A program made the position numbers and the translations under genes. The notes under the pieces were generated by a model. It was not told the DNA's origin, made no database searches, and saw nothing but the letters and a program-made list of their open reading frames with translations. Positions 4,020-60,117 of a stretch of 64,000 nt of DNA are shown here, piece by piece. Numbering within the stretch: the first letter of the stretch is position 1; each line of letters starts with the position of its first letter. Origin of the DNA: a virus; IMG/VR virus record IMGVR_UViG_3300020200_000015, positions 18,961 to 82,960 of that record; one strand, given 5' to 3'.

Positions 4020-6178
4020 CTGTTTTCCCTCAGAACAACAACATCTGTCATGGCATAGCTACCCTTTTCAGTCCTGCGACCGAAGGCTTGGATAACGCTA
4101 CCGACCTTGACGCGATGCTTAGACTTAGGCCAATCGCTCGGCCAAACAATCACATCCATCTCACCATCAGCAGTTAGCAGCGAGACGAATGCCATCATAC
4201 CGCTCTTAGCCTGGTGCTCCTTGACCCTAGATACCATGCCGCCAACCATGGCACATGTAGGTTGTTTCGCCGACTCTGGCGTAATGCATTTCGCAAGCTG
4301 CTCTTTGAAATGAGCAAGCGGATTATGCACCAGGTAGAAACCAAGCACATCTTTCTCTTTAGTGGCAAGCTCTCCGAGAGTTACCTCATCGTGCACGCTC
4401 GACTTGCACAGGTGCTTGGCAATGCTAGCTCTATCGCCGAAGCAATCGAGCGCGCCGCCAAACACGAGGCCGCTGATCTGGTTGGCGTTTAGCTTCACTC
4501 GACCAATGAATTCGTACTCATCAGAATACGGACGACGCTCAATAATCTGCTTGGACTTGCTGCCAACATGCTTGATGCACTCAAGCCCCATACGGATAGC
4601 GCCATCTTCGATCGAATAGCTCTCGGCGCTCTTGTTGACATCTGGCTGAAGAATCTTAATGCCAAGCCGATCACACTCTTTGATGTAGATCTCTTTGCTC
4701 TTGGTTTGCAATGCGCTGCACATGAATTGCAGCGGGTAATGCTGCTTCATGAACATGTCAGCGTATGCAATGTAGCCATAGCATACAGCGTGACTCTTGT
4801 TGAAGATGTACTTCTGGCAGGCAAGGATCTTATCCCACAGAGCCTCGACTGCCATCTCCTCAAAGCCCTTGGCAATGCAGCCAGCCTTGAAGTCATCGTA
4901 CACTTCTGACAGACCCTTATTGCTGCTGTTCGCAGTCTTGGCGATGATCTTTCTCACCTTGTCAGACTTGGCCATGCTAAAGCCTGCAATGTCAACGCAA
5001 ATTCGCATGACCTGCTCTTGGTAGAGAATGACGCCGTGCGTGTCCGATAGGATAGGCTCAAGCTCCGGCACAATGTAGCGCGCACTACCCTCATTGCGGG
5101 CAGTGATAAACTGGCTCACATCAAGTCCAGGGCGAATTAGAGCGTTGACAGCAGCAACATCACGAAATTGAATATCACTCAGACTCTGCAGAATGCTAAC
5201 CGACTTAAGCTCTTCAAACTGAAAGACTGCAACGGTTTCGCCTCGTTCGAATCCCTTGAGCGTATCCTTGTCGTCAAGTGGCAAGTTGTAGAAATCAATC
5301 TCGCTGCCAACCATCTTGATTGCGCGGCTGATGATTGAAAGATTATCGACAGTCAAGATGTCAAGCTTGACATAGCCAAGGCTATCAAGCTCTTCACCAT
5401 CCCATCCGGTAGCTAGCTGTCCGGTTACGGCAGCTTCGCCGGGTGGTCGCTGCATAGGTATCTCAGCGCCCATAGGGCCACGAGACAAAATCACAGCGCT
5501 TGGGTGGGTCGTTAGCTGGCGAACAAAACCTTGCAGAGACCTGGCGTAGAGGAAGAGTTCTGGGTACTTGTCCTCGTAATCCTTCAACGATGGCGACTCT
5601 TCAAACGCCTCATCGAATGTCTTAGCGTCTCCGATCAGCTTGGTGATTACCTTCACCTCGTTGAACTCGAGCTGATACACCTGCGACAGCTCATCAATCG
5701 CACTCCTCGGCTTGTAGATCGATGGCACGCCAACCTTGGCAATGCGATTGAGACCGTACTTGCCACGCAAGTAATCAATCACCGCATCACGGTCGCTAAA
5801 GTCAGTGTCAATATCTGGCAAGCTGATGCGCTCTGGATTCAAGAAGCGCTCGAAGATCAACCCAAACTTCAACGGATCGATCGTCGTAATGCCTGACAAG
5901 AAGACAACTAGGCTACCGGCAGCCGAGCCTCTACCTGGGCCAACTACGATCGCATTCAGCTTCGCCCAACGAATGTAGTCGGCGATGATCAGAATTACGC
6001 TCGAGTACCCACTGTTATTAAATACCTTGATTTCGTGCTCAAGACGCCGATAGTATTCAATCGGCGGAGCGAAGTACTTGCCCGACTTGATATAGCTCTG
6101 CAGATTCTCTCTGCAGAGATTGTAGAGACGCTGATTATCAGTTACGGCAACGGTGCCTGCTTCGTTGTCCCTAGACAT
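4016..6178 (-). CDS. dnaE: DNA polymerase III alpha, polymerase half (split DnaE, lacks PHP domain)
   Basis: 720 aa corresponding to the palm, thumb, fingers and OB parts of bacterial DnaE. GPGRGSAAGS is at 80-89, the catalytic pair lies in PDIDTDF (Asp124, Asp126), the third Asp is in KLDIL (Asp273), and HPSAV and RPG motifs follow. A helix-hairpin-helix region is near residue 540 and an OB domain near 630-690; a tau-binding C-terminal domain seems absent. The N-terminal PHP domain is missing here and is encoded separately at 9155-10024. The protein begins just before the segment equivalent to E. coli Y-FLIV-MEF, i.e. at a natural domain edge. No intein sequence is seen at this N-terminus. 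The start overlaps the preceding gene by 37 bases. Confidence 0.93.
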   Translation of the reverse strand: MSRDNEAGTVAVTDNQRLYNLCRENLQSYIKSGKYFAPPIEYYRRLEHEIKVFNNSGYSSVILIIADYIRWAKLNAIVVGPGRGSAAGSLVVFLSGITTIDPLKFGLIFERFLNPERISLPDIDTDFSDRDAVIDYLRGKYGLNRIAKVGVPSIYKPRSAIDELSQVYQLEFNEVKVITKLIGDAKTFDEAFEESPSLKDYEDKYPELFLYARSLQGFVRQLTTHPSAVILSRGPMGAEIPMQRPPGEAAVTGQLATGWDGEELDSLGYVKLDILTVDNLSIISRAIKMVGSEIDFYNLPLDDKDTLKGFERGETVAVFQFEELKSVSILQSLSDIQFRDVAAVNALIRPGLDVSQFITARNEGSARYIVPELEPILSDTHGVILYQEQVMRICVDIAGFSMAKSDKVRKIIAKTANSSNKGLSEVYDDFKAGCIAKGFEEMAVEALWDKILACQKYIFNKSHAVCYGYIAYADMFMKQHYPLQFMCSALQTKSKEIYIKECDRLGIKILQPDVNKSAESYSIEDGAIRMGLECIKHVGSKSKQIIERRPYSDEYEFIGRVKLNANQISGLVFGGALDCFGDRASIAKHLCKSSVHDEVTLGELATKEKDVLGFYLVHNPLAHFKEQLAKCITPESAKQPTCAMVGGMVSRVKEHQAKSGMMAFVSLLTADGEMDVIVWPSDWPKSKHRVKVGSVIQAFGRRTEKGSYAMTDVVVLRENR

Positions 6179-8802: not shown

Positions 8803-9155
8803 TACGTAACTTTCCAGATGCCGTCGGGACGCATCCTACATATTGCAAGTACTTGATATAGGGCAGTCTTCACGTTGCCATCGGTTGAATCCCAATAGCT
8901 GATGCCCATCTCATTCCCAAGCTGGGCGATAGCTTTCTCTAGAATCGGGATAGCGTTGGCGGCAAGGGAACCATCAAGCGCTTTGATACCACCATTGATG
9001 ACTTTGTACAAACGATCAGCGTAGTTGTACGTCATTGCGAGGCCGAGCTGCGTCGTGCCGCCGACAGCATAAATTGATCCTCGCATGAAGTGCTTTTCTT
9101 CAGAATGCAAGACTCTACCAGTCACAGGGTGACACAGGTCGAGGTCGTAGCTCAT
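8802..9155 (-). CDS. Conserved phage-type hypothetical protein
   Basis: 117 aa beginning MSYDLDL and containing HFMRGSIYAVGGT, MTYNYADRLYKV, IPILEKAI and WDSTDGN-KTAL motifs. This motif order belongs to a small family I recognise from phage and bacterial genomes that has no assigned function. Single-base overlaps on both sides tie it to the polymerase PHP gene. The fold appears alpha/beta, without membrane segments. Confidence 0.7.
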   Translation of the reverse strand: MSYDLDLCHPVTGRVLHSEEKHFMRGSIYAVGGTTQLGLAMTYNYADRLYKVINGGIKALDGSLAANAIPILEKAIAQLGNEMGISYWDSTDGNVKTALYQVLAICRMRPDGIWKVT

Positions 9156-10024
9156 TATTCTTTGAATGATGGCACCTTAGTGCCTTGACGAAGATCAAAA
9201 GATTCAACAACATTGGCAACTTCGCCAGTTCGCCAGACAGCCTCTTGCAGTTCGACGCTGTTGACGAAATAGCCGTCACCATGAAGAAGGTCAAACGCAG
9301 CGCACACCTCATCTTCAGACATGATGTGGCGGTCGCCACGAAACGGGAACTCCCAATACGGGTTGCGTGAATTCTTAGCCGCTAGGTAGCGCTCGAAGAA
9401 GTCACGATCCGATACGGTAGCATAATGTGGATCAACTGTGGCTACCAACTTGATGGCATCGTTAGTCTTTGCCTCAGTTAGCAACGCAGCGTTGTACACG
9501 CGCTGCGACTCAGTTTGGCTTGGTTGAACCTCCCAATAGAGGTTATCACCGTACAACTCGCTCAGTTCAGCGTAGCAAGTAGCTATGCCGTTCATGCCAG
9601 CGGCAAAGAATCTTGCCGCAGCCCATCCCTTGATGTCCGACGTTAGGCAGATGATGCCCTCATTGAACTTGGCAAGTGCAGCCATATCCACGCGAGGATG
9701 GTAATAGAAGTACATTGAGCCAATAGTGGCAAGCTTAGTCAGGTTACTAAGCCCGACACTATTCTTCGCCAAAAGCACCAGCGTACTAGACTGCTGCTGC
9801 TTCAGCGATTTGTCCTGCGCTACATTGACTTCCATGCCGAAGATCGGCTTGACGCCGGTCTTCTTGCACGCATTATAGAGTTGAATAACGCCGCTCAACG
9901 TGCCGTTATCGGTCACGCAAGCGGCGCTACCGCCCAACTCCAGGACGCGCTCAACCAGCCGAGATGGCTTTATGAGAGATCTTCCTACCGACCTGTCAGT
10001 GTGACAATGTAGGTGGACAAACAT
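9155..10024 (-). CDS. DNA polymerase III alpha, PHP-domain half (split DnaE N-terminus)
   Basis: 289 aa matching only the N-terminal PHP domain of DnaE. The metal motif HLHCHTD is at residues 4-10 (His4, His6), then VTDNGTLSG (Asp39), FGMEV (Glu65), LLAKNSVGLSNLTKL and VDPHY near 217. It ends with LRQGTKVPSF, the segment that in complete DnaE precedes the palm, so the break lies exactly between PHP and polymerase domains. The His of the usual TDH motif is Asn40, so phosphoesterase/proofreading activity is uncertain. The rest of the enzyme is at 4016-6178, downstream in the same operon and in collinear order. No intein halves are visible. Confidence 0.88.
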   Translation of the reverse strand: MFVHLHCHTDRSVGRSLIKPSRLVERVLELGGSAACVTDNGTLSGVIQLYNACKKTGVKPIFGMEVNVAQDKSLKQQQSSTLVLLAKNSVGLSNLTKLATIGSMYFYYHPRVDMAALAKFNEGIICLTSDIKGWAAARFFAAGMNGIATCYAELSELYGDNLYWEVQPSQTESQRVYNAALLTEAKTNDAIKLVATVDPHYATVSDRDFFERYLAAKNSRNPYWEFPFRGDRHIMSEDEVCAAFDLLHGDGYFVNSVELQEAVWRTGEVANVVESFDLRQGTKVPSFKE

Positions 10025-10314: not shown

Positions 10315-10533
10315 TTAGACCTTAACCACTATACGGCTAGTAACTAGCTTTGTAAAGTGCTCCAAGGTAGATATGCAAGTTATTTTTGCCAGCTTCATGA
10401 ATACCGACAAGCGATCGATATTCGCTAGCGGGAACCAGTACTGCGCTTGAGTTGGGCAGCTCTCTCTAGCCTCACAGATTGCCATGAGTTCTTTGCTATG
10501 CTCAAGCTCAAACAGCACAACGTTGTCAGGCAT
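10315..10533 (-). CDS. Small unknown protein
   Basis: 72 aa with two Cys near the middle and hydrophobic C-terminal half (FMKLAKITCISTLEHFTKLV). It overlaps the end of the sigma-like gene by 8 bases. No motif recognised; coupling to the sigma gene is the only hint of role. Confidence 0.5.
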   Translation of the reverse strand: MPDNVVLFELEHSKELMAICEARESCPTQAQYWFPLANIDRLSVFMKLAKITCISTLEHFTKLVTSRIVVKV

Positions 10534-11143
10534 TTTTGATTCTAACTTTCAAAATTGATTCTACCGCCGGCTGGATCCTGCTATACAGTACGTGGCGCAC
10601 GCGACTTGTCAAGATGCCGAGCCTACCAGCAACAGCCTCTGGTGGATTACCTTGACGAAGCAGATCGAAAATCTTGCGGTCATCAGGCTTCAGCAAGTTA
10701 GAGACGGCATCACAGATATCGTTACCGTGAACTACGTCGTTGACATCTGGCTGAATCAATTCAGGCTCGGTGATGTAGTCGAACGACGACATCTCATCTG
10801 AATCTGTCTCGCCCAAGATTGGGATGATGGCACCCTTCGGCTTACGCTTCGCAACATTGGCAGCGTACTTCTCATCAATCATTGCGTTGCGAACGTAGGT
10901 GATGAAGAGCTTCAAGAACCTTCTCTCATTGTGCTCTTCAGAAAATCCGTCCTCGTAGACGAACTTGATGCAAGCCTCATGAAGCTTGACTAGCGCGAGG
11001 TTGTACAGACTGTCAACATCCTCAACTCGCTTCAACATTGCGTCACGCGAATAGGGCATGACAATACTCCGAATCATTTGCGCAAGCTTCTTCTCGATTT
11101 CGTTGAAGCCGACAGGTTTCTTGTTGATGATGATTGCTAGCAT
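10526..11143 (-). CDS. Sigma-70-like RNA polymerase sigma factor
   Basis: 205 aa from the ATG at 11143, chosen because GGGAGG lies four bases before it; the frame is open further upstream without a ribosome site. The N-terminal half has region-2-like helices (DVDSLYNLALVKLHEACI, FLKLFITYVRNAMIDEKY), and the C-terminal 60 residues resemble region 4 (LLKPDDRKIFDLLRQG, PPEAVAGRLGILTSRVRHVLYSRI). The overall size fits a phage-encoded ECF-like sigma factor, presumably for middle or late promoters. Which promoters it reads cannot be told from sequence alone. Confidence 0.7.
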   Translation of the reverse strand: MLAIIINKKPVGFNEIEKKLAQMIRSIVMPYSRDAMLKRVEDVDSLYNLALVKLHEACIKFVYEDGFSEEHNERRFLKLFITYVRNAMIDEKYAANVAKRKPKGAIIPILGETDSDEMSSFDYITEPELIQPDVNDVVHGNDICDAVSNLLKPDDRKIFDLLRQGNPPEAVAGRLGILTSRVRHVLYSRIQPAVESILKVRIKNA

Positions 11144-11228
11144 TTGCCTCCCTAACGCTTGGCAACAGGCTAACCGCAACGCCATTGCAGGCAAGCGCAA
11201 AGCAAACTTTTTTTAGCCGCAAGCCAGT

Positions 11229-12290
11229 TCACTTTTTAACCTGCGTAACTTTGTGGCGTGTAACAGTTAACGGTCCAGCCAACTGATCAGACTCATAATG
11301 GCAGTACCGAGTCCCAAAATCAATTGCATGAAATAACTCTTCTGGCGTGCAGTCTCCAGGATCCTTGCCGATTGGGCACATGTAGATCCATGCAGCTTTT
11401 CCGACAGTTGGGATCATTCTATCGACCAGATCCCAACCACGCAAGCCATCAAGGTCTGGCATGATGCCGTGATTGTCAAAGTCTTTGAGTAGTCGCAACT
11501 GCTGATCACTAATCATGTTAGTGAAGCAAGCCATCGGATGAACACTACCCAACGTCAGCGACTCGATCTTAATAGCATCGAGAATCGACTCGACCATGAT
11601 GTACGAGCGCGCTTCAAGACAACTATCGTAGTTGAACAGAATCTCACCCTGCGGCGAGTTCTTGGGATAGCGCTTCGCGCCACCCTTCTTAGGCTGAGCG
11701 TAGAAGACGCTTCGCAACTGCCCGCGAAACTTGATAGGTATGACGATGGCATAGCCGATAGACTGGCTCATTGTGCAGCCAATCTCGAACTTGTCCATGT
11801 ACTCTGGCGTTATGTGACGCTCGGTAGTCAGCCATTCCCTAGCTGCAATCGACTGATTATCATGGCACTTGGTAATCAGCTTGTAGTCGTCAGGAAGATC
11901 AAAGTACTCAATAGGCTTGTCATCTTCAATCTGCGGCTTGGCTATCTTCAACTTAAGAACAAGCGCATCAGTGCCATCAACATTGGCGCTACCAAAACGC
12001 TCTTGCAGAACATCGATAGCTTGTGGAAAGCTGATGTTCATGCAGTGGCTAATGAGATGGACTAGGTTGCCTTTGAAGTTGCAAGCCCAGCAATTGAAAA
12101 GCCCTTTGAACTTTCCAGACTCAGCAATGCTGATTCTCTTCTTATGCCTGTCCTCGGCATGATTATCAGTTGGACAAGCAAAGTACAGCTCATGCCCATT
12201 CTTATTTGATCGCCTCTCAAAGTCGAGGCCAAGATTAGTCAGAACCAGCGCCACCTCTGAGCGCTGCATTAGCAAGCCAAAGTCAATCAT
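11229..12290 (-). CDS. DNA primase (DnaG/gp4-type, CHC2 zinc and Toprim)
   Basis: 353 aa. The N-terminal zinc site reads Cys39-x4-His44-x22-Cys67-x2-Cys70 with the FNCWACNFKGN primase signature. The Toprim domain has its Glu in MVESILDAI and the Asp pair in MPDLDG. It lacks a C-terminal helicase-interaction domain as large as that of bacterial DnaG (about 580 aa). It makes RNA primers for lagging-strand synthesis and abuts the DnaB gene with a 1-base overlap. Confidence 0.88.
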   Translation of the reverse strand: MIDFGLLMQRSEVALVLTNLGLDFERRSNKNGHELYFACPTDNHAEDRHKKRISIAESGKFKGLFNCWACNFKGNLVHLISHCMNISFPQAIDVLQERFGSANVDGTDALVLKLKIAKPQIEDDKPIEYFDLPDDYKLITKCHDNQSIAAREWLTTERHITPEYMDKFEIGCTMSQSIGYAIVIPIKFRGQLRSVFYAQPKKGGAKRYPKNSPQGEILFNYDSCLEARSYIMVESILDAIKIESLTLGSVHPMACFTNMISDQQLRLLKDFDNHGIMPDLDGLRGWDLVDRMIPTVGKAAWIYMCPIGKDPGDCTPEELFHAIDFGTRYCHYESDQLAGPLTVTRHKVTQVKK

Positions 12291-13636: not shown

Positions 13637-14498
13637 TCAGAATACTCCTGCGAATGTCGCTCGACAGAACCTGACGATGGTCCTGACCAACTAGAACGAT
13701 TTCAGCACAGTGCTCCTGAAGCATACTCGCAACGTGGGGGCTAAAGTCCACGTAAGCATCTTTAATCGTTCTGTTCGAGGTGAATATACACGGTTTGTTA
13801 CCCTGTAGCCTTTCGCGCAAGAGGTTATCAAAGAGCGCCCTCTCGATACCAGTCGCAGTTTTGTAAACTTTGTCAAGGTCATCGATAATCAACAAGTCTG
13901 ATTTCTTGATGCCTCTTGCGATGATGGCAGCCTCATCATCGCGCCAGCCACGAATCTCATTCTGAATGATGACTGCCATGGTGTAGTACTTGACGGTCTT
14001 ACCAAGCATGACGGTCTTATTGGCAATGCAGCAAGCGAGGTATGTTTTGCCTACGCCATTGGGGCCGGTCAGGTACAGACCATAGCCCTTGCTAATCATG
14101 TTGCTCAAGCTACCGACATATGACTCCACTACCTTGTAGCTCTCATCATTGATGTTTTTTTCGACATCATTGCGACCAACATTGACCCACTTGCGCATAT
14201 CGACATCATGGTACCTGGGCGGGATGTTCGATTCGCTACGAAGCTTATCAGCCAGCAACTTCCGCTTGCGGATCAACTTGCAAATGCAATCAGCAGTTCT
14301 GACCGAACCATCGACCTTTATCAGCGTTCCAGTCTGGTGGCAATTAGCGCAAGCCCACTCCTTCGTATGAAGGTAATGGTTCGCAAGAACCAGCTTATCT
14401 CTTTCACTTAGATTGGAATACTTGGCCTCAACTATCTTCTCAGCTTCCTGCCTTGTCCTGGGCATACTTGATCCAGTCGATTGGTTCCCTGCCGTCAT
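13626..14498 (-). CDS. DnaC/IstB-like helicase loader ATPase
   Basis: 290 aa. N-terminal zinc finger (Cys50, Cys53, Cys71, Cys73), then SNIPPRY typical of DnaC-type loaders, Walker A GPNGVGKT at 145-152, Walker B LLIIDDLD, and sensor-like TSNRTI. It should load the DnaB hexamer on single-stranded DNA. The first ATG overlaps the upstream gene by 59 bases; an ATG at 14465 (Met12) would shorten the overlap to 26. Confidence 0.85.
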   Translation of the reverse strand: MTAGNQSTGSSMPRTRQEAEKIVEAKYSNLSERDKLVLANHYLHTKEWACANCHQTGTLIKVDGSVRTADCICKLIRKRKLLADKLRSESNIPPRYHDVDMRKWVNVGRNDVEKNINDESYKVVESYVGSLSNMISKGYGLYLTGPNGVGKTYLACCIANKTVMLGKTVKYYTMAVIIQNEIRGWRDDEAAIIARGIKKSDLLIIDDLDKVYKTATGIERALFDNLLRERLQGNKPCIFTSNRTIKDAYVDFSPHVASMLQEHCAEIVLVGQDHRQVLSSDIRRSILNGG

Positions 14499-15150
14499 CC
14501 TTAACGCCCCTCATGGTGTTGCTGTGCCTGACCTCACCTCTAGCCATACGGCTTGCCGCAGTTACGAAAGCCTTGCGCAGCTGAAAGTGAGACTTTTTCT
14601 CAAGTAGCTGAAGCCCTTCCTCTGACTTGAGAACCTTATCTCTAAACCAAATCAAGATAGGCATCCAATTCTCAGGCTTGATTTGAATACCAGCAAGACC
14701 ATCGATTATCTCAAGCTGATAAGCGTCAGTGTGAGCGCCAATTTGCAGCATGATTGATTGGAACAACCCCTTGGCGATTTCCGGCACAGACGCACAGAAG
14801 AGGTCAATGTCCTTCTTATCCAGGTCGTGACGCCTTTTCTGATTGACTGACTTGGTCAATTGACCAAGCTTTGCAGCTTCAGTCTTTGCGATGTCAACTG
14901 AAGCAATCGCTGCTTCAAGAATCTTCATGCCGCTATCAAACTTGATTTCACCGCAGTAGTTGATTGATGATTTGTAGCGAGTGTAAATCCGAGTCGGCTG
15001 ATCGTCAAGCTCAACGATAATCGTTCTGTCACCTTTCTCAATCATCAGTAGCCTTTCAGCCTTCTGATTCTTCAACTTCTCAATCACTCTTTTAGCTTCT
15101 GCTTCATCAGAAGCAACGATGAAGAAACCGTCAACCGTGAATTGTGGCAT
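14440..15150 (-). CDS. Unknown protein upstream of the helicase loader
   Basis: 236 aa, soluble, alpha/beta. N-terminal 70 residues contain strand-rich FTVDGFFIV and TIIVELDDQPTRIY; the rest is helical. Cotranscribed with loader, helicase and primase. No family recognised. The gene starts just below a G-rich leader and repeated AAGTTAACTCG sites (see 15168-15281), so it is probably the first gene of the replication transcript. Confidence 0.7.
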   Translation of the reverse strand: MPQFTVDGFFIVASDEAEAKRVIEKLKNQKAERLLMIEKGDRTIIVELDDQPTRIYTRYKSSINYCGEIKFDSGMKILEAAIASVDIAKTEAAKLGQLTKSVNQKRRHDLDKKDIDLFCASVPEIAKGLFQSIMLQIGAHTDAYQLEIIDGLAGIQIKPENWMPILIWFRDKVLKSEEGLQLLEKKSHFQLRKAFVTAASRMARGEVRHSNTMRGVKDDGREPIDWIKYAQDKAGS

Positions 15151-48337: not shown

Positions 48338-48931
48338 TCATACTATACCTGAGTTAGCCCTATCTTGGCTAAGATCGAGGTTTGCGTCCTCGATGCGGTG
48401 ACAGGCGCGCACGAGCCTCTTAAACTGCTCAATAACGTGTTTAATCACGTCACCGCCTATCCAGCCAATGTCCCGTATTTCGGTGCACGCCTTCAGCCCA
48501 GCCCGCGCCTGCTTCAGATTGAGTACAAGCTCCTCTGACCCAGGCAGCACCTCGATGTAAGACTCTCTGATCTTAAACATCCTGCTGCTCTTCACAAGCT
48601 GACGAGTACGGTTGAGCAAAGTGCGTACTGCATCAATCACTTCAGTGTGCTTGTAGTAGTCGGAGCACTCTCTCGTGAAAAGATGCAGCGCGTATTCAAG
48701 CTGCAAGAAGCCGTTGCCTGTTAGCCTCAGGTCAACGCCCTTGAGATATTGATTCAGCCTCTTCGGAATGAAAGCACGCAGACGTAATACCTGACTCGCA
48801 ATCCTAGCCGCCGGATCGGACTCTTTCTGCAAGACCTTTGAAACTCTGTACTGAGCCCAATGCTTGCGCGAGGCTTTCTCTAAGGGCTTTGATGCTCTGT
48901 CCATTGTCGATGTCGATCTTCTTGATGCCAC
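48338..48931 (-). CDS. Unknown basic helical protein
   Basis: The open frame is 197 aa, but its first 42 codons overlap the dNMP kinase gene in another frame, so the real start is probably internal (a TTG near 48833 follows AAAGG). The sequence is helical with many Arg/Leu (KRLNQYLKGVDLRL, DAVRTLLNRTRQLVKSSRMF). No function recognised. Confidence 0.5.
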   Translation of the reverse strand: MASRRSTSTMDRASKPLEKASRKHWAQYRVSKVLQKESDPAARIASQVLRLRAFIPKRLNQYLKGVDLRLTGNGFLQLEYALHLFTRECSDYYKHTEVIDAVRTLLNRTRQLVKSSRMFKIRESYIEVLPGSEELVLNLKQARAGLKACTEIRDIGWIGGDVIKHVIEQFKRLVRACHRIEDANLDLSQDRANSGIV

Positions 48932-49424
48932 TGCATCTTACGTAGCGGCGGCTGTCACCAGTGAACGAGCAGCCTGCCTTAAAGATATGACACAGTAGCA
49001 TATTCTCATTACCAAACTCGTCAGCTAATTCTTTGACCTCATGCTTGAACCCACCATCAGTCACTACAGCGTACTGCATCGGCGTGCCGATTGAATGACA
49101 GCGCAGCAAGCATTGTTTGATCTCATCAGCGAGACGCTTACCAAAATACCCTTGCCCGAACAACGGCTTGGCGAAACCCTCAGACATAGCAATGTACGCT
49201 TCACGAGGGGTGACGCTATGAAAAGCCGGCAGCACGCTATCTTTGGATTCTTCGAAGAAGTCCGGATAGTAACCATCCAAACCAAGCGCTCTGTGAGTCA
49301 TTATTTTGAGCGCATTGGCAAACTTGAACAGATACACACCATCACTGCACCGGGCAAGCATGGTGCCGATAGTGTCTTTACCGCTATGGGGTGGCCCATT
49401 GAGTACGATAATCTTCATTTGCAA
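48804..49424 (-). CDS. Deoxynucleoside monophosphate kinase (T4 gp1-like)
   Basis: 206 aa. P-loop GPPHSGKDT at residues 10-18, typical of phage dNMP kinases that read GxxxSGKDT, followed by FKFANALK and SVTPREAYIAMSE. Supplies dNTP precursors. It precedes the unknown helical gene and follows a small Tyr-rich protein. AAGG lies 9 bases before the ATG. Confidence 0.8.
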   Translation of the reverse strand: MQMKIIVLNGPPHSGKDTIGTMLARCSDGVYLFKFANALKIMTHRALGLDGYYPDFFEESKDSVLPAFHSVTPREAYIAMSEGFAKPLFGQGYFGKRLADEIKQCLLRCHSIGTPMQYAVVTDGGFKHEVKELADEFGNENMLLCHIFKAGCSFTGDSRRYVRCSGIKKIDIDNGQSIKALRESLAQALGSVQSFKGLAERVRSGG

Positions 49425-51109: not shown

Positions 51110-51340
51110 CCCTCAAATTCAAGTCAGCATAACTGAATGCTCAGTCTCAACAGCAATTCACTCTATCAATGCAGAACTGAATGATGCAGTCTACTGAAGC
51201 TCAGTAGATTATATCTGCTTGAATTCAGTCAGTCACTATGACTATGAGGTGCTGACTTCTTTCATTCATTCTTTCTTTCAGTCACTCTATCATTCATTCT
51301 TTCATTCACTCATGACTGAATGAAACATTGCTGCACATGG
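51110..51340. repeat. ATTC/ACTC low-complexity tract
   Basis: Degenerate repeats of TTCATTC, CACTC, CAGTC and TGAATGA. Similar tracts recur at about 51770-52080, 52555-52625, 53080-53140, 53560-53640, 54000-54060, 54530-54605 and 56070-56230, always between cassette genes. Confidence 0.75.
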
Positions 51341-51352
51341 CGGCATGGCCGC

Positions 51353-51673
51353 CTAGTCGAACCACAACTTTAGCATAGGCTCGCCGCCTTGCGGGAATAT
51401 GTTGACGGACAAGTAACCGTCAGGCAACTCGTCCGGCAACTGCCGCAAAGCAGCGACGAAGGCAGCGTAGCTGTCGGCAGTATGCCAGCCGTGCGTCAAG
51501 TACACGCTAACGCCGTCTGCCGTGCCATCGCCGTCGGCAGTCTCGTCGGCATGCATCGACAGCACATAGTTAAATACGTCAACATGTGCATGGCAGCACT
51601 CGATGACGGCACGAAAGAAGTTAGCGTACTCCTTGCTAGCGTTGTACGTAAAGGTGGGGATCGGCTTCTGCAT
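51353..51673 (-). CDS. Unknown protein, tandem paralogue family copy 1 (cassette B)
   Basis: 106 aa. Shares with the genes at 52109 and 52670 the pattern CC-x-H (ECCHAHVD here), GDGTADGVSVYL-x-x-GW, SYAAFVAALRQLPDELPDG and the C-terminal LKLWFD (FKLW in the others). It is the most diverged of the three. Cassette B precedes it. No known family. Confidence 0.7.
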   Translation of the reverse strand: MQKPIPTFTYNASKEYANFFRAVIECCHAHVDVFNYVLSMHADETADGDGTADGVSVYLTHGWHTADSYAAFVAALRQLPDELPDGYLSVNIFPQGGEPMLKLWFD

Positions 51674-51689
51674 TGTTTCGTTGTCCTTT

Positions 51690-51742
51690 GCGCCGCACCA
51701 TGCGGCGCAGGTGTAGCATACTATACGGTGCAAGGGTTGCAA
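51690..51742 (-). promoter_or_regulatory. Cassette B: promoter plus 5-prime hairpin
   Basis: Minus strand: TTGCAA (51737-51742), 16 bp, TATGCT (51715-51720), then the hairpin GCGCCGCA-TGG-TGCGGCGC (51690-51708), AAAGGA-type ribosome site and ATG 51673. Confidence 0.8.
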
Positions 51743-51900
51743 ACACTAGCCAACACATTCATTACCACCACCACTTCATTCATTCAATCACTCAGTCACT
51801 CTTTCAATCATTCATTCACTCACTCTTGATGTCATGACTTCATTCCAGAGTGACACGGTGAGGTTCATATGACTTAGTCACACTGAGTTCACTCATTCAG

Positions 51901-51942
51901 TTAGAACATATCTGCCTGAGTTCATTCAAATAGATATGTTCT
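51901..51942. repeat. Iteron-like site with inverted partner
   Basis: TTAGAACATATCT at 51901-51913 and its inverse AGATATGTTCT at 51932-51942. The first equals the core of the 25-bp iterons at 53631-53906. Confidence 0.75.
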
Positions 51943-51983
51943 ACCTGAGTTCATTCACCGTTGAGTTCAGTCAGTCACTCAGT

Positions 51984-52072
51984 CAGCGTGTAACTGAACT
52001 GAATTCATTCTAGCATTCATGTGCGCATAACTGAACTGAATTCATTCTAGCATTCATGTGCGCATAACTGAA
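51984..52072. repeat. 37-bp tandem repeat with GCGCATAACTGAA core
   Basis: Two and a half units; cores at 52023 and 52060, exactly 37 bp apart, with a variant near 51986. Each unit carries ACTGAACTGAATTCATTC and TAGCATTCAT. Confidence 0.8.
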
Positions 52073-52108
52073 CTCATGAGCCAGTGCACCTAACGGCACA
52101 AGCCGTGG

Positions 52109-52462
52109 CTAGTAGTACCACAGCTTGAAAACCGGGTGCCCTTTAGGGGCAAACAAGTTGATTACAAGGTCGCCGTCGGGCAGCGCGTGGCTAGCCATGC
52201 ACGGGCAGCGACCAACGTCGGGCAGCGCACGCAGGGCGGCGATGAAGTCGGCATAGACGCTTGCTTGCCAGCCGTCGTTGAGCCACACGGTTACACCGTT
52301 GGCTCGCAGTTCCCCGGCTTCGTCGCCAGTATACCTGATGTACCACGTGAAACTGTCGCTGTGCTTTTGGCAGCAAGCGACAATGTGCTGAAGCAAGTTG
52401 TCGTAGCCGTCGCAGTTGGCGACAAAGGGTGGCACCGTTGCCATTGGTTGAGGGTCGTGCAT
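52109..52462 (-). CDS. Unknown protein, paralogue copy 2 (cassette C)
   Basis: 117 aa, about 75 percent or more alike by eye to the 52670 gene: same start MHDPQPMATVPPF, HIVACCQKHSD, NGVTVWLNDGWQAS, LPDGDLVINLFAPKGHPVFKLW. It has an extra segment (VGRCPCMASHA) before LPDGD that the other copies lack. Acidic, soluble, no membrane segment. The Cys-Cys-x-x-His piece may bind metal. Confidence 0.75.
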   Translation of the reverse strand: MHDPQPMATVPPFVANCDGYDNLLQHIVACCQKHSDSFTWYIRYTGDEAGELRANGVTVWLNDGWQASVYADFIAALRALPDVGRCPCMASHALPDGDLVINLFAPKGHPVFKLWYY

Positions 52463-52475
52463 GTTGTTGTCCTTT

Positions 52476-52528
52476 GCACCGCACTATGCGGCGCAGGTGT
52501 AGCATACTATACGGTGCAAGGGTTGCAA
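52476..52528 (-). promoter_or_regulatory. Cassette C: promoter plus 5-prime hairpin
   Basis: TTGCAA at 52523-52528, 16 bp, TATGCT, then a GCGCCGCA-TAG-TGCGGTGC hairpin (52476-52494) containing one G-U pair, AAAGGA, ATG 52462. Confidence 0.8.
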
Positions 52529-52637
52529 GCACTAGCCCACACATTCATTACCACCACCACTTCATTCATTCAATCACTCAGTCACTCTTGACTTCAATCA
52601 CCCTTGAGTTCATTCATTCAGTAGATTGTCAGGCACT

Positions 52638-52665
52638 GAAAAAGCCACCCCGCTAGGGGTGGCTT
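52638..52665 (-). terminator. Rho-independent terminator after paralogue copy 3
   Basis: Perfect 10-bp stem AAGCCACCCC / GGGGTGGCTT (52642-52651 with 52656-52665), 4-base loop and TTTTTC on the minus strand. A second exact copy is at 54619-54646. Confidence 0.9.
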
Positions 52666-52669
52666 GAGG

Positions 52670-52978
52670 TTAGTCGTGCCACAGCTTGAAAACCGGGTGC
52701 CCCTTGGGGGCAAACAAGTTGACTACAAGGTCGCCGTCGGGCAGCGCGTTGGGCAGCCACCGCAGGGCGTCGATGAAGTCGGCGTATGTGCTTGCTTGCC
52801 AGCCGTCGTTGAGCCACACGGTTACGCCACAAGCTTGGTCGCCAGTATACCTGACAAGAAACGTAAGGGCGTCGCTGTGCTTTTGGCAGCAAGCGACAAT
52901 GTGCTGAAACAAGTTGTCGTAGTCGTCGCTGTTGGCGATAAAGGGTGGCACCGTTGCCATTGGTTGAGGGTCGTGCAT
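52670..52978 (-). CDS. Unknown protein, paralogue copy 3 (cassette D)
   Basis: 102 aa, near-duplicate of the 52109 gene without its 11-residue insertion. The high DNA identity, including the 5-prime ends, indicates recent duplication. It ends in VFKLWHD directly above a strong terminator. Confidence 0.75.
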   Translation of the reverse strand: MHDPQPMATVPPFIANSDDYDNLFQHIVACCQKHSDALTFLVRYTGDQACGVTVWLNDGWQASTYADFIDALRWLPNALPDGDLVVNLFAPKGHPVFKLWHD

Positions 52979-52991
52979 GTTGTTGTCCTTT

Positions 52992-53044
52992 GCGCCGCAC
53001 TATGCGGCGCAGGTGTAGCATACCATACGGTGCAAGGGTTGCAA
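52992..53044 (-). promoter_or_regulatory. Cassette D: promoter plus 5-prime hairpin
   Basis: TTGCAA at 53039-53044, 16 bp, TATGCT preceded by TGG (extended -10), then perfect hairpin GCGCCGCA-TAG-TGCGGCGC (52992-53010), AAAGGA, ATG 52978. Confidence 0.85.
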
Positions 53045-53164
53045 GCACTAGCCCACACATTCATTACCACCACCACTTCATTCATTCATTCACTCTTGAG
53101 TTCAGTCACTCTTGACTGACTTCATTCATTCACTCACCCTAGGCAGGCAAAGCAAACCTGGGCG

Positions 53165-53452
53165 TTAGCCCAGGTCGGCCTCAACCAGCACGGCGGTTAC
53201 ACCCTCACCGTCGGCACTGTTGCCGGCGGTGTCGAACAGGTACGCCGCCTTGTCGTGAGACATGCCCTGCGCCGTCTCCTCGTCCAACATGCCATCGGCA
53301 ACCAGCTTGCCGACCGTCGTGGTCTCAAGCTGCGCGTCGTACTGCGACGGCCCAAGGCCGTTGAGAATGCGACCGCACCACAGCAGGGTTTGAGCGTCGG
53401 GGTTGGTCCCCAGCGCATTGAAAAACACACACACAAGTCGTTTGTTAGCCAT
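53165..53452 (-). CDS. Unknown protein (cassette E), distant paralogue of 54714 gene
   Basis: 95 aa from ATG 53452, chosen because AAGGA precedes it; the frame is open further through the cassette. Contains GPSQYDAQLETTTVGKL and the C-terminal GVTAVLVEADLG. It shares layout with the gene at 54714 (GPYTKEIKLDFNTTLG, NAVVVEVAL). Small acidic alpha/beta protein without known motif. Confidence 0.7.
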   Translation of the reverse strand: MANKRLVCVFFNALGTNPDAQTLLWCGRILNGLGPSQYDAQLETTTVGKLVADGMLDEETAQGMSHDKAAYLFDTAGNSADGEGVTAVLVEADLG

Positions 53453-53478
53453 GAGAACTGTCCTTGTCGTTTGGTTGT

Positions 53479-53531
53479 GCGACGCACTATGCGGCGCAGG
53501 TGTAGCATACCATACGGTGCAAGGGTTGCAA
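53479..53531 (-). promoter_or_regulatory. Cassette E: promoter plus imperfect hairpin
   Basis: TTGCAA at 53526-53531, 16 bp, TATGCT with TGG before it, then GCGCCGCA-TAG-TGCGTCGC (53479-53497) with one mismatch, followed by AAGGACAG and ATG 53452. Confidence 0.8.
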
Positions 53532-53630
53532 GCACTAGCCCACACATTCATTACCACCACCACTTCATTCATTCATTCATTCATTCACTCACCGCTGAAT
53601 GATTGACTGATTTCATTCAGTCCTGAGTTC

Positions 53631-53906
53631 AGTTAGAACATATCTACCTGAGTTCAGTTAGAACATATCTACCTGAGTTCAGTTAGAACATATCTACATT
53701 CACTCAGTTAGAACATATCTACCTGAGTTCAGTTAGAACATATCTACCTGAGTTCAGTTAGAACATATCTACATTCACTCAGTTAGAACATATCTACATT
53801 CACTCAGTTAGAACATATCTACATTCACTCAGTTAGAACATATCTACATTCACTCAGTTAGAACATATCTACCTGAGTTCAGTTAGAACATATCTACATT
53901 CATTCA
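53631..53906. repeat. Iteron array, 11 copies at exactly 25 bp
   Basis: AGTTAGAACATATCTAC begins at 53631, 53656, 53681, 53706, 53731, 53756, 53781, 53806, 53831, 53856 and 53881. The 17-bp core does not vary; the 8-bp linker is either CTGAGTTC or ATTCACTC (ATTCATTC at the end). Core TAGA-N5-TCTA is a partial palindrome. Candidate replication origin, partition or repressor-binding site. Confidence 0.95.
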
Positions 53907-53938
53907 TCGCGGCACTTGAAGTCATTCTATACATATGC

Positions 53939-53986
53939 GCGCATAACTGAATGATCTCTCATCAACCATATGCGCGCATAACTGAA
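53939..53986. repeat. Two GCGCATAACTGAA repeats 35 bp apart
   Basis: Cores at 53939 and 53974, each preceded by ATATGC and followed by TGATCT. Same core as the repeats at 51984-52072 and 56246-56497. Confidence 0.8.
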
Positions 53987-54065
53987 TGATCTAATTCATT
54001 CCAGAGTCTTGGAATGCAATCAGTCACTCAGTCTTGAGTGATGTGCAAGTAGCGGCGGGCGCAAA

Positions 54066-54422
54066 CTACTGTTTGCGCCATGGGTCACTTAGCCATTTGC
54101 TGTTGCTACCTTGACTGTACAGCTTGCTGCCGTCAGCCAGCGTCGCCCAGGCAACCCAAAAGCCACGCGATGAGCTAACCACGGTCGCCAAGCAACGGCC
54201 TTGGTGCCAAATAGCGTCGCTACCCTCAAGGTTAGTAACCACCACCCAACCGTCACCAACTGGTTGGGCGTCGGCGTCGTCGTTGCACTGCTGGCTGATG
54301 TTGTTGTCGCCGCTACCCAGCAGCACGCACAGCTCAACAATTGCCTTTAACAAACCGCCCTGCCCAGCGGGCAAGCGTTTGCCTTCGTCCAAGTACAAGC
54401 CCAATGCCTTTTGTTCGTCCAT
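54066..54422 (-). CDS. Unknown protein (cassette F)
   Basis: 118 aa from ATG 54422. Contains MDEQKALGLYLDEGKRLP, GDGWVVVTNLEG, HQGRCLATVV and GFWVAWATLADGSKLYS, a compact alpha/beta profile. No relatives in the window. Cassette F supplies promoter and ribosome site. Confidence 0.65.
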   Translation of the reverse strand: MDEQKALGLYLDEGKRLPAGQGGLLKAIVELCVLLGSGDNNISQQCNDDADAQPVGDGWVVVTNLEGSDAIWHQGRCLATVVSSSRGFWVAWATLADGSKLYSQGSNSKWLSDPWRKQ

Positions 54423-54437
54423 GTGTTGTTGTCCTTT

Positions 54438-54490
54438 GCGCCGCACTATGCGGCGCAGGTGTAGCATACCATACGGTGCAAGGGTTGCAA
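54438..54490 (-). promoter_or_regulatory. Cassette F: promoter plus 5-prime hairpin
   Basis: TTGCAA at 54485-54490, 16 bp, TATGCT with TGG before it, perfect hairpin GCGCCGCA-TAG-TGCGGCGC (54438-54456), AAAGGA, ATG 54422. Confidence 0.85.
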
Positions 54491-54599
54491 GCACTAGCCC
54501 ACACATTCATTACCGCAGTCACTCACTCTTGACTTCACTCACTCTTGAGTTCATTCCAGAGTCTTGGAATGCAATCAGTCACTCTTGAGTTCATTCATT

Positions 54600-54700
54600 C
54601 AGTAGATTATCAGGCACTGAAAAAGCCACCCCGCTAGGGGTGGCTTGAGGTTAGTCGTGCCACAGCTTGAAAACCAGCCTACGGTGCAAGGGCTACAAGC
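54600..54700 (-). pseudogene. Deletion scar: terminator and tail of a lost paralogue joined to promoter debris
   Basis: 54600-54677 repeats 52620-52697 almost exactly, including the terminator and the last codons of the FKLWHD paralogue. Directly after them (54679-54705) comes CTACGGTGCAAGGGCTACAAGCA, cut here to a short piece, which matches a degraded cassette promoter. The body of the gene is gone, so a copy was deleted by recombination. Confidence 0.75.
54619..54646 (-). terminator. Second copy of the AAGCCACCCC terminator
   Basis: Same 10-bp stem, loop and T run as at 52638-52665. It now serves the 54714 gene. Confidence 0.88.
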
Positions 54701-54713
54701 AACTGCCTTGTTC

Positions 54714-55007
54714 TCACAGCGCCACCTCAACCACCACCGCATTGGCGGTTTCATCCTCGAACTCGCTGGCTGCTTCCCACACAGCGCATGCGGTGTCAGG
54801 CGGCAAGCCAGCACCAACGCTGTCATCACCCCACAGGTCACGCACAGCGCCAAGGGTGGTGTTGAAATCCAGCTTAATTTCCTTGGTGTAAGGCCCATGC
54901 CCTTCATGCAGCTTACCTTCGGTAAAGAAAAGCTGGGTGAACTGGTGCTTGCCGAAGTTGCAGTGCGCTATCAGCTGCACCTTGTTTGCTTTTGGTTGTG
55001 TTGCCAT
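54714..55007 (-). CDS. Unknown protein (cassette G), distant paralogue of 53165 gene
   Basis: 97 aa. MATQPKANKVQLIAHCNFGKHQF, GPYTKEIKLDFNTTLGAVRDLWGDD and an acidic C-terminus ending NAVVVEVAL. Layout parallels the 53165 product. No known family. Confidence 0.7.
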   Translation of the reverse strand: MATQPKANKVQLIAHCNFGKHQFTQLFFTEGKLHEGHGPYTKEIKLDFNTTLGAVRDLWGDDSVGAGLPPDTACAVWEAASEFEDETANAVVVEVAL

Positions 55008-55020
55008 GTCGTTGTCCTTT

Positions 55021-55073
55021 GCGCCGCACTATGCGGCGCAGGTGTAGCATACTATACGGTGCAAGGGTTGCAA
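55021..55073 (-). promoter_or_regulatory. Cassette G: promoter plus 5-prime hairpin
   Basis: TTGCAA at 55068-55073, 16 bp, TATGCT at 55046-55051, perfect hairpin GCGCCGCA-TAG-TGCGGCGC (55021-55039), AAAGGACAACGAC, ATG 55007. Confidence 0.85.
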
Positions 55074-55192
55074 GCACTAGCCCACACATTCATTACCCCC
55101 GCTGCACTCATTCAACTGCGCCTGCTTTACCCTGCGCTGAATGAATGAATTCACACACAAGGCAAGCCACCTTGTTGAAGGGTGGCCGCCCA

Positions 55193-55459
55193 CTACACCA
55201 CAAACATCAGGTCAGGGTGTGCGGGCTTGTACTGCTGAGTGCCAGCGGCCTTGTTGAGCGCGTCGCGCACAACAGGGTTTTGGTGGCCATCAGCAAACTT
55301 AATGAGGTTGTTAACCATGGCATCAAGCTGGGCGCGCATAACGCGCACACTTTCAACCAACGCGGCGTCGCCCATGCTTTCAGCATTTGCGGCGATGTAA
55401 TCATAGCGCAGCTTAAAGCGCTGCACTTGGTTGCCAATGGCAAGTAGGTAGTCGTCCAT
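55193..55459 (-). CDS. Unknown helical protein (cassette H)
   Basis: 88 aa, all helical for the first 60 residues (LLAIGNQVQRFKLRYDYIAANAES, VMRAQLDAMVNNLIKFADG). The AAGGA site lies 13 bases before ATG 55459, longer than in the other cassettes. Function unknown. Confidence 0.65.
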   Translation of the reverse strand: MDDYLLAIGNQVQRFKLRYDYIAANAESMGDAALVESVRVMRAQLDAMVNNLIKFADGHQNPVVRDALNKAAGTQQYKPAHPDLMFVV

Positions 55460-55486
55460 TTGAGTGTCGCTGTCCTTGTTGTTGGT

Positions 55487-55539
55487 GCGGCGCACCATGC
55501 GCCGCAGGTGTAGCATACCATACGGTGCAAGGGTTGCAA
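55487..55539 (-). promoter_or_regulatory. Cassette H: promoter plus covarying hairpin
   Basis: TTGCAA at 55534-55539, 16 bp, TATGCT with TGG, then GCGGCGCA-TGG-TGCGCCGC (55487-55505). Compared with cassette G two pairs are swapped on both strands, so pairing is kept. Confidence 0.85.
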
Positions 55540-55559
55540 GCACTAGCCCACACATTCAT

Positions 55560-55979
55560 TTACAGCAGCGCCTTCACCTTGGCCCAGTACTTCACCGTGG
55601 CGTCCTTGCGGTGTCCTTTCGGCCCACCATTGTGAATACGGGCCAGCTTCTCACGGTCACCGTCGGCCACAGCTTGCTTGGCGTACCTGAGCCAGTAGGC
55701 AACCACGCACCTCTCAGCATAAGTGCGGCCTTTCACGTCGTCGTATGTACCACCCAGCTCAGTGCAATGGTCGGTAGCGTCCTTCCAGTACACGCGCCAC
55801 AGCTGAAAGCTGCCAAGAGCCTTGCCCTTGTCGCCAACAGCCTCATTGTCGTTGCCACTTTCCACGGTGGCAATGGCATCAAGTAGCGGGCGCAGCTTTG
55901 TGCGCGCCTCATCGAGTTCGGCTACCGTTGACCCCTTGGGCGCAACGGCAAGCATGAGCATAAACGCTAGTGTCCTCAT
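55560..55979 (-). CDS. Lysozyme-like transglycosylase (endolysin candidate)
   Basis: 139 aa from ATG 55979. A hydrophobic N-terminus (MRTLAFMLMLAVAPKG) looks like a signal or signal-anchor. The SLT/lysozyme core follows: catalytic Glu40 in TVESGND, GKALGSFQL at 53-61, CVVAYWLRYA and ARIHNGGP at about 113-120. It would cleave peptidoglycan during lysis or act in DNA entry. It is far from the holin-like genes at 36 kb and has its own cassette. Confidence 0.8.
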   Translation of the reverse strand: MRTLAFMLMLAVAPKGSTVAELDEARTKLRPLLDAIATVESGNDNEAVGDKGKALGSFQLWRVYWKDATDHCTELGGTYDDVKGRTYAERCVVAYWLRYAKQAVADGDREKLARIHNGGPKGHRKDATVKYWAKVKALL

Positions 55980-55999
55980 CGTCGCTGTCCTTTGTTGGT

Positions 56000-56048
56000 G
56001 CGCCGCACCATATGCGGCACTAGGTATATTAGCAGTTTGCGCCTTCAA
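56000..56048 (-). promoter_or_regulatory. Cassette I: diverged promoter and hairpin for the lysozyme
   Basis: Hairpin GTGCCGCA-TATGG-TGCGGCGC (56000-56020) with a longer loop; upstream on the minus strand TAATATACC and TTGAAG give a possible but imperfect promoter. AAAGGACAG precedes ATG 55979. Confidence 0.6.
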
Positions 56049-56245
56049 CTTAAGGGCAAAATAACATTCATCCCCGCCGCTGAATGAATGACTTCAGCCC
56101 CTGAGCGCTGAATGAATGAATTCAGTCAGTCATCACCTGAGCGCTGAATGAATGAATTCAGTCAATCAGTCACTCGCTCATTCAACCATCTGGTCTGGCT
56201 GAACGAATGAACGAATGAATTCCAGAACTCAGCTGCTACGCGCAC

Positions 56246-56497
56246 GCGCATAACTGAACTACTGAAACATCAATGCGCGCATAACTGAACTGAACCAGAT
56301 AGCCACTCAATCAGATTCAACCTGTCACGCGCATAACTGAACTGAGCCAGATAGCCAATCAATCAGATTCAACCTGTCACGCGCATAACTGAACTGAGCC
56401 AGATAGCCAATCAATCAGATTCAACCTGTCACGCGCATAACTGAACTGAGCCAGATAGCCAATCATTTCCTCTGACCACGGTGCGCGCATAACCGAA
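56246..56497. repeat. 52-bp tandem repeat with GCGCATAACTGAA core
   Basis: Cores at 56246, 56277, 56329, 56381, 56433 and a variant at 56485. The 52-bp unit also carries GAGCCAGATAGCCAATCAATC and ends in AACCTGTCAC; three units are exactly spaced. Confidence 0.9.
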
Positions 56498-56517
56498 TCC
56501 ACCGGAGAGAGATAAAT

Positions 56518-56830
56518 ACTTTGATGATTAAGAGCGAGAACTAAGTGATCCTCAGGTTTATATCGATCCCCCACCGGATCGATAAGCCCATAGCTCCTAT
56601 CTTGATGATTAAGAGCCAATCCAGGCCCAGATCCCCAAGATGATTGAGTTCATGAGCTTTTATATGTTTTGCCACCGGATCGATAAAAGCCTGCTCTTAT
56701 CTTGACGGATTGACTATTACCCACACACAACAAAGAGCGGGTTCTCAGTCACAACCCGTGAATGAATGACTTCATGATATCCGTCAGGGTATTTATGAGT
56801 TTCGCCACCGGATCGATAAAGCCTACCCAT
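56518..56830. repeat. Dispersed CCACCGGATCGATAAAGCC repeat
   Basis: Copies near 56568, 56673 and 56808, a partial one near 56518, and one near 57585 that forms the end of the 57572 gene. On the minus strand each is followed by an AT-rich piece such as CATAAATA or ATATAAA, which resembles T4-type late promoters, though no gene starts there. Confidence 0.75.
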
Positions 56831-56939
56831 TTTCAAGGCTAAATGATGAAAGTTAGACCATTCTCATCATAAATAGCCTCTCAGTCCACATTTTCTGGCT
56901 AAATGATGAGCCATGGAGTAGTCTGACTGTCAGATTGTG

Positions 56940-57136
56940 GGTGTACGAGCACCCCCTCAGACAATCCTCAGAGTACTCTCAACCCCCTCATCGCCCCCAT
57001 CCATCACCCTCCCCGCATCTCACCCCATTCCCGCACTTCTCTCACACTACCATCATGGGCTTCTCTCCCCCTTCGTCTCATCTACACTACCATTCCTATC
57101 ACCCTACTACTCATATCCTAGTAGTTCAGCTACTAG
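56940..57136. other. Strand-asymmetric pyrimidine tract and inverted repeat
   Basis: The plus strand is strongly C/T-rich from about 56950 to 57150 with many CCCC runs. CTAGTAG-TTCAG-CTACTAG (57118-57136) is a perfect 7-bp inverted repeat. Possible triplex-forming or packaging-related DNA; no gene. Confidence 0.5.
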
Positions 57137-57404
57137 CGTGACTCTCTCCTGCTATCAGTTGTTCATCGACCAGCTTCATCTACAACTGACTGATCACTAC
57201 TAGCGGTCATCCGTACTCATTTACAAATGCCACTGATCAGCGTAAAGGCTTCTTGATGATGTGTCAGTCATCATCACTGAGATTTCCCAAACGGGAAGTT
57301 CAGAGGATTTCTCAGGCTTCAAACTTGAGTCACATTTACTATCCTTCATCTTTCAAAAGCCATTCACGGCTGTATTTTTGCCTTGTGGGTTTACTACCAC
57401 CCTT

Positions 57405-57572
57405 TTATTTCTTTGCAATCTCAACGCCTTCACCGTTGTAATCAGTACGCTTGAGTATGCACCGGTAAATACTAGCTAGGGTACGCAAGCTCATGATCCA
57501 GTCCTTTGTCTCACAGTGATCATGAATCTTTGATATCCTCCCGAAGAACTGGACTGCGTGGTAATCACTCAT
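57405..57572 (-). CDS. Small unknown protein
   Basis: 55 aa from ATG 57572, overlapping the upstream stop as TGATG; a longer frame would start inside that gene. Contains FFGRISKIHDHCETKDWIMSLRTL and a basic C-terminus. No motif. Confidence 0.5.
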   Translation of the reverse strand: MSDYHAVQFFGRISKIHDHCETKDWIMSLRTLASIYRCILKRTDYNGEGVEIAKK

Positions 57573-59844: not shown

Positions 59845-60117
59845 TTAAGACTCAGGGGTTTGAACGATCACTTTGATGCGACCGCGCTTCGTGCGCTTCT
59901 TGACCTTCACGACCCTTCCACCCTTTGCAGGCTTCACGGGATCGTAGCGCCTCGATAGTCCCATTGCGCGGCGCACGGCTGAGAGTGAGTAGCCTGTGAT
60001 TCGAACAGTATCACGCAAGCCGAGGATGCTGTAGCACAGGCGAATGACTTGACGCAGCGCAGGCGTGACATTCATGCCGCGCTGTTGTTCAACTCGAGAA
60101 CGTTTCTTACGAGCCAT
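59845..60117 (-). CDS. Small basic helix-turn-helix-like protein
   Basis: 90 aa from ATG 60117. Very basic, with LRQVIRLCYSILGLRDTVRITGYSLSAVRRAMGLSRRY, resembling a homeodomain-like HTH, and a Lys/Arg C-terminus. AGAGG precedes the ATG. Probable DNA-binding regulator. Confidence 0.6.
   Translation of the reverse strand: MARKKRSRVEQQRGMNVTPALRQVIRLCYSILGLRDTVRITGYSLSAVRRAMGLSRRYDPVKPAKGGRVVKVKKRTKRGRIKVIVQTPES

Follow-up and report, generated by a model that had tools for sequence, protein, structure and literature searches.

A 25-bp tandem repeat array with an internal dyad in a small-gene block of a lake phage: a candidate operator-like cluster

Short repeated sequences resembling those described here have been reported from several phage groups. 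In Cluster O mycobacteriophages, 17-bp dyads ascribed to a dimeric protein and of no known function are dispersed over more than 30 sites (PMC4351075), while phages of the TLS/T1 group possess a 21-nt direct repeat in front of genes that the authors liken to stoperators or enhancers (PMC11447400). The O protein of phage lambda binds iterons as dimers, and these iterons are located inside the O gene itself, beside an AT-rich tract (PMC7466680); iterons are typically tightly linked to repA (PMC7157519). The SAS/ESAS repeats of Cluster K mycobacteriophages are tied to start codons (PMC3203893). For iteron-like intergenic arrays in phages, the literature yielded these comparators only.

Here we describe a tandem array in a lake virus of bacteria, found within a window of 64,000 nucleotides that covers positions 18961-82960 of a virus record of 82,960 bp; coordinates refer to this window unless another contig is named. 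The called genes lie on the minus strand and include those for terminase, portal, PolIII alpha, RecA, a gp32-like SSB, a metallophosphoesterase and an SbcC-like protein, together with DnaB, a DnaC-like loader, primase, a UvsW-like helicase, a sigma factor and queuosine-pathway genes. The catalytic part of PolIII alpha and its PHP domain are separate genes (4016-6178 and 9155-10024). A set of 7-deazaguanine pathway genes (L034 232-7075: QueC, GTP cyclohydrolase I, QueD-like PTPS, radical SAM and QueF-like) suggests that the phage DNA may be modified. No DNA match was found in phage records, the nearest terminase among cultured phages (Microcystis phage yong1) reaches 28%, and neither a terminase scan of genome contigs nor Rfam returned a match. 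Related-phage contigs were recovered by terminase scan at 52-76% identity, with G001 at 76%.

The array consists of eleven direct 25-bp units at 53629..53903 (+), each composed of TCAGTTAGAACATATCTAC and a 6-bp linker. As the initial annotation had reported, the 17-bp core CAGTTAGAACATATCTA is exact in all eleven copies and starts at 53630, 53655 ... 53880, a 25-bp pitch with zero exceptions. This agrees with TRF and with dinucleotide shuffles, in which core matches at no more than three mismatches averaged 0.08 and never reached the 13 found in the window. The invariant part is larger than the core first proposed, with 20 of the 25 unit columns constant across all copies (TCAGTTAGAACATATCTAC plus one linker T). 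Both linker versions that had been distinguished are present in the other five columns, namely A (CTGAGT) and B (ATTCAC), and the final copy (B') terminates in ATTCAT; past a leading A, the series runs A A B A A B B B B A B'. The proposal of 75-bp block duplications fares less well: it goes back to a single AAB-AAB pair, and linkers agree no better at a lag of 75 bp (5/9) than at 25 bp (6/11) or 50 bp (5/10). Two small genes of the 51-56 kb block flank the array, and the 496-bp gap that it occupies ranks second in size under the ORF criterion applied. Stops occur in all six frames, so that the array is non-coding and a coding-repeat reading was rejected, as was a CRISPR reading, given that there are just two spacer versions.

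Regular spacing and constant cores had been taken as typical of protein-bound iterons. Both are real, but they speak less for function than was assumed, because recent duplication alone gives the same pattern. A serious rival to any functional account is thus neutral tandem growth, in which slippage and unequal recombination in a tolerant, low-constraint intergenic block would have produced a functionless array. The existence of merely two exact linker versions is what recent duplication would leave behind, and the phage encodes a RecA/gp32/46-47-like kit. On balance we consider this explanation unlikely.

Single-strand folding revealed a feature absent from the initial annotation: the array unit, rather than being a simple asymmetric iteron, is a 23-bp interrupted dyad, TCAGTTAGA-ACATA-TCTACCTGA (motif M1), which fills 23 of the 25 bp and whose arms are complementary at 8/9 positions in A-linked units. 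Because the dyad spans both parts of the unit, the "linker" is partly site and the "core" partly spacer. The full dyad TCAGTTAGA-N5-TCTACCTGA is present in array copies 1, 2, 4, 5 and 10, each with an A linker next to it; in the other six, linker B keeps the inner TAGA-N5-TCTA and drops the outer right arm. A scan of the whole 82,960-bp record with the dyad recovered the array as five perfect sites and six that are three positions off, two solo sites one position off (51897 and 51926) and a doubtful one two positions off; the remaining matches were at the level of shuffled sequence. The doubtful site, at position 69 (2/16 off) and probably within a coding frame, was treated as chance.

The two solo dyads, TCAGTTAGAACATATCTGCCTGA at 51897..51919 (+) and TCAAATAGATATGTTCTACCTGA in inverse orientation at 51926..51948 (-), each depart from the dyad at 1/16 positions, have arms complementary at 7/9 positions and together form a 13-bp hairpin-capable inverted pair. 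They bear out an extra core with an inverted partner that had been noticed in this region (51898-51914, +, and 51931-51947, -, with one mismatch each), and the consensus of the full M1 site is TCAGKTAGA-N5-TCTAMCTGA. A degenerate core, CAGATATAATCTA at 51205..51217 (-), is off at 3/13 positions and could be due to chance. Solo dyads in both orientations are not what random slippage would be expected to produce.

A second motif, M2 (GCGCATAACTGAA; minus strand TTCAGTTATGCGC), has nine exact copies in three clusters, all within the 5-kb small-gene block. Two copies 37 bp apart adjoin the solo M1 dyads (52023..52072, +), and two more, 35 bp apart and each with the perfect palindrome TATGCGCGCATA, are found just past the array (53934..53986, +). 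The third cluster (56246..56497, +) holds five exact copies and one with a single mismatch, mostly at a 52-bp pitch; a 52-bp tandem array with M2 (3.7 copies, 56274-56497) lies upstream of a gene with a Destabilase domain (i-type lysozyme-like, 55560-56048). M1 and M2 have TTCAGTTA in common, and a half-site word shared by two motif families would again be unexpected from random slippage. Of the word TAACTGAA, 19 copies fall within 50.9-56.6 kb and the remainder of the 83 kb has one, and M1 and M2 are restricted to 51-56.5 kb rather than dispersed over the genome. The same block is crowded with tandem arrays (13-bp x5.3, 37-bp x2.3, 52-bp x3.7 and TTCA runs), several of them unrelated to one another, and the record's first 19 kb contain none, a distribution that favours neutral growth. 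The intergenic DNA of 51250-56800 is also composed of degenerate 4-nt TTCA/TGAN words, with runs upstream of the repeated promoters, and CCACCGGATCGATAA appears three times at 56560-56830, within and at the border of the largest gap between genes that is non-coding (56650-57407).

The array is located 99 bp from a promoter-like block, TTGCAACCCTTGCACCGTATRGTATGCTACACCTGCGC at 53494..53531 (-), whose putative promoter function is read from sequence. It is one of seven near-identical copies of a promoter/leader block spread over 51705..55539 (-; at 51705, 52491, 53007, 53494, 54453, 55036 and 55502), six or seven of which precede single small genes; the solo M1 sites lie ~155 bp from another copy. 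The block matches the sigma-70 consensus at only 8/12 positions and was not picked up by a promoter scan, and the promoter word CTTGCACCGT has nine copies in the record, eight of them in the small-gene block. Five of the seven promoter-like blocks are without M1 sites; the array is therefore not required for this type of promoter. The block at 53494..53531 lies upstream of the first gene downstream of the array (53165..53452, -), which encodes a 95-aa protein of pI 4.2 with no family match that is not likely to bind DNA. The gene flanking the array at its other end, 54066..54422 (-), encodes 118 aa, with a pI of 4.7 and likewise no family match. We call the 51-56 kb block "early" in a provisional sense, judging from its layout and by comparison with takeover blocks in other phages. 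Three small acidic proteins encoded here (51353-51655, 52109-52462 and 52670-52978) are paralogues, 82% and 44% identical, and each gene stands behind its own copy of the common promoter/leader; these are promoter and gene modules that were duplicated recently.

Searches for the array in IMG/VR found it, besides the window, only in one near-identical contig; the exact core gave 21 single matches in other contigs, which were taken as chance 17-mers. Over about 15.4-15.6 kb, this contig (L032, IMGVR_UViG_3300020214_001594) corresponds to the window and, outside the array, differs by one 8-bp indel (48960-48967). The indel falls inside the gene 48804-49424 and would shift its frame. Within the array, L032 has three successive linkers A where the window has B, and if this difference is real, array rearrangement outpaces point mutation. 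Such a change between contigs that are near-identical over 15.4 kb is readily accommodated by neutral growth. It could also reflect mis-assembly, since L032 ends within the array and array copy number is here derived from short-read assembly. Reads that do not span 275 bp could have produced a wrong count or linker order, and the break in L032 and its disagreement at three successive linkers fit such an artefact. Both contigs independently contain at least nine exact copies at a 25-bp pitch, which confines the doubt to count and order, and we regard an artefact as highly improbable.

The initial annotation had proposed a comparison of copy number between relatives. G001 has arrays of an equivalent kind, with a unit, period and copy number that all differ from those in the window. 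The block is reached by a single relative contig, L043, which is G001 and whose upstream end (G001:1-2793) is L047. In the stretches available, L041, L042, L043, L044 and L046 have no array like that of the window, and M1 is absent from every relative examined. The equivalent region of G001 is arranged as a gene, a strong terminator-like hairpin, a non-coding repeat stretch, CTTGCACCGT and a small gene, and it lies upstream of conserved genes shared with the window phage. The repeat stretch (L047 617-1018) comprises a 12-bp array in two alternating versions, an array of TTCAGTTGTGC and palindromes; in this non-coding DNA GTTCAGTTGTGCA is repeated 3.4 times with an additional solo copy, and the 16-bp palindrome TACGCACTAGTGCGTA occurs four times. 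Between TTCAGTTGTGC and M2 there is a single base difference, and the two share their orientation with respect to the terminase, as TTCAGTTRTGC does in the two phages. In 36 kb of G001 there is a single copy of the promoter word CTTGCACCGT, ~250 bp after the array.

Shuffles of the 13-bp unit matched the M2 11-mer equally well in 95 of 200,000 cases, for a likeness that was spotted post hoc. Paired TTCAGTTRTGC, a pattern written to cover both phages, was found among 2.9 million viral contigs (IMG/VR) only in the window phage, G001 and a single AT-rich phage family that is unrelated, where it stands in what looks like a coding region. We take the comparison of M2 with G001 as supporting evidence rather than proof; the recurrence of TTCAGTT together with the promoter word would be unexpected from random slippage. 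The arrays of L044 at the equivalent place are very different, with a perfect 15-bp unit repeated seven times (1-105, at the contig end) and a 9-bp unit repeated 4.4 times (481-520), a divergence that sits well with neutral growth. L048, a stretch from the relative phage, contains 201-bp tandem repeats at 10414-12040 that are apparently coding.

Two phage proteins had been suggested as binders of the array. The HU-like identity of the protein at 45542 was confirmed, but it is encoded in L041, L042, L043, L044 and L046 (5/5), which are without a copy of the array, and it was rejected as a specific binder. The supposed HTH protein at 59845 has neither a Pfam nor a PHROG match and no recognisable DNA-binding domain; its structure model (pLDDT 59) is too poor for use, and it too was set aside. 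The protein beside the DnaC-like gene (14440-15150), considered as an initiator, matches no family in Pfam or PHROGs.

An origin of replication had also been suggested, in which a phage initiator dimer on the array would open A+T-rich DNA and load DnaB via the DnaC-like protein. Direct repeats with an internal dyad do resemble dimer-bound sites such as those of lambda O (PMC7466680), and the array occupies a 496-bp gap and, at 69% A+T vs ~49% overall, ranks among the A+T-richest parts of the window. At 65-69% against 59-65% in its flanks, it has no distinct A+T-rich tract. DnaB, the DnaC-like loader and primase are indeed encoded by the phage (11.2-14.5 kb), but some 40 kb from the array. Among the ~70 phage proteins scanned with Pfam no initiator family was found, although an initiator of a novel type is conceivable, and the neighbours of the array encode acidic proteins that match no family, the adjoining gene being unrelated to initiators. 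The strand-skew check that had been proposed gave no turn in GC skew, no DnaA box is located near the array, and site clusters occur in several intergenic regions. The T4-like recombination kit would moreover suggest replication without a fixed iteron origin. An origin is thus the weaker reading, and we consider it improbable.

The same scan of ~70 proteins bears on a centromere-like partition site, which had likewise been raised, and on a role in packaging or as a target of recombination. Partition sites typically have tandem repeats of 20-25 bp, and dyads occur at recombinase sites too. No ParA, ParB, integrase, resolvase or recombinase gene was found among the proteins scanned, the gene content is that of a lytic phage, and the terminase lies 8.5 kb off, without such sites. 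We judge all three roles very unlikely. What remains of the original proposal is its general form, repeats bound by a protein, with which the dyad, the solo sites in both orientations and the recurrence in a relative are consistent.

We tentatively favour, at somewhat less than even confidence, a recombinationally unstable operator-like cluster for a dimeric DNA-binding protein that would regulate early transcription. This reading is based on the dyad-symmetric site, its solo copies in two orientations, its clustering near promoter-like sequences that are themselves putative, and its recurrence in a relative; from these features we infer protein binding, cooperativity and an effect on transcription. 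A dimeric protein of phage or host may dock on the 23-bp dyads upstream of one early-type promoter, with the tandem sites allowing cooperative binding, and the bound array could then switch or silence the adjoining promoter. Alternatively, the array might titrate the dimeric protein during infection. Recombination among direct repeats would let the array grow and rearrange, and would account for the turnover of its number and linkers.

We further speculate, with considerable doubt, that this phage group uses fast-evolving arrays of operator dyads upstream of early promoters as an adjustable dial or sponge, in which the TTCAGTT core word is kept while unit length, partner sequence and copy number vary, even within a population. 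If site and core word do persist in this manner, such operator clusters would offer a natural series, akin to the promoter microsatellites of bacteria, for testing how early host-takeover genes are tuned through the number of sites. If the array reflects merely neutral growth, it cautions against recognising iterons by exact spacing and exact cores alone.

None of the systems outlined at the outset (PMC4351075, PMC11447400, PMC7466680, PMC3203893) has tandem repeats of fixed pitch located beyond a promoter, and each shares part of the features of the window array. As in Cluster O, many copies of a dyad are present in a lytic phage and a dimer is assumed (PMC4351075). The Cluster O sites are genome-wide, with one third within genes and few near promoters, whereas those of the window are tandem at fixed pitch and occur in one block only, upstream of promoter-like sequences; confined to 51-56.5 kb, M1 and M2 lack the dispersion of stoperators and of the Cluster O dyads. 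The array is intergenic and in front of genes like the TLS repeats (PMC11447400), but the latter occur at 21 scattered sites, are oriented with transcription and stand ~76 bases ahead of start codons, and a tandem array is not described for them. With the lambda iterons it shares direct repeats (PMC7466680), which in lambda are bound by a dimer beside A+T-rich DNA; in the window, binding by a dimer is proposed and the array itself is A+T-rich. Lambda has 4-6 iterons within the initiator gene, whereas for the window array no initiator gene was found and the helicase genes are 40 kb away. Like SAS/ESAS, finally, the repeats are tied to gene starts, with inverted repeats in some (PMC3203893), but SAS stand at the start codon and look translational, while the window array is located beyond the promoter, ~180-450 bp from the start codon.
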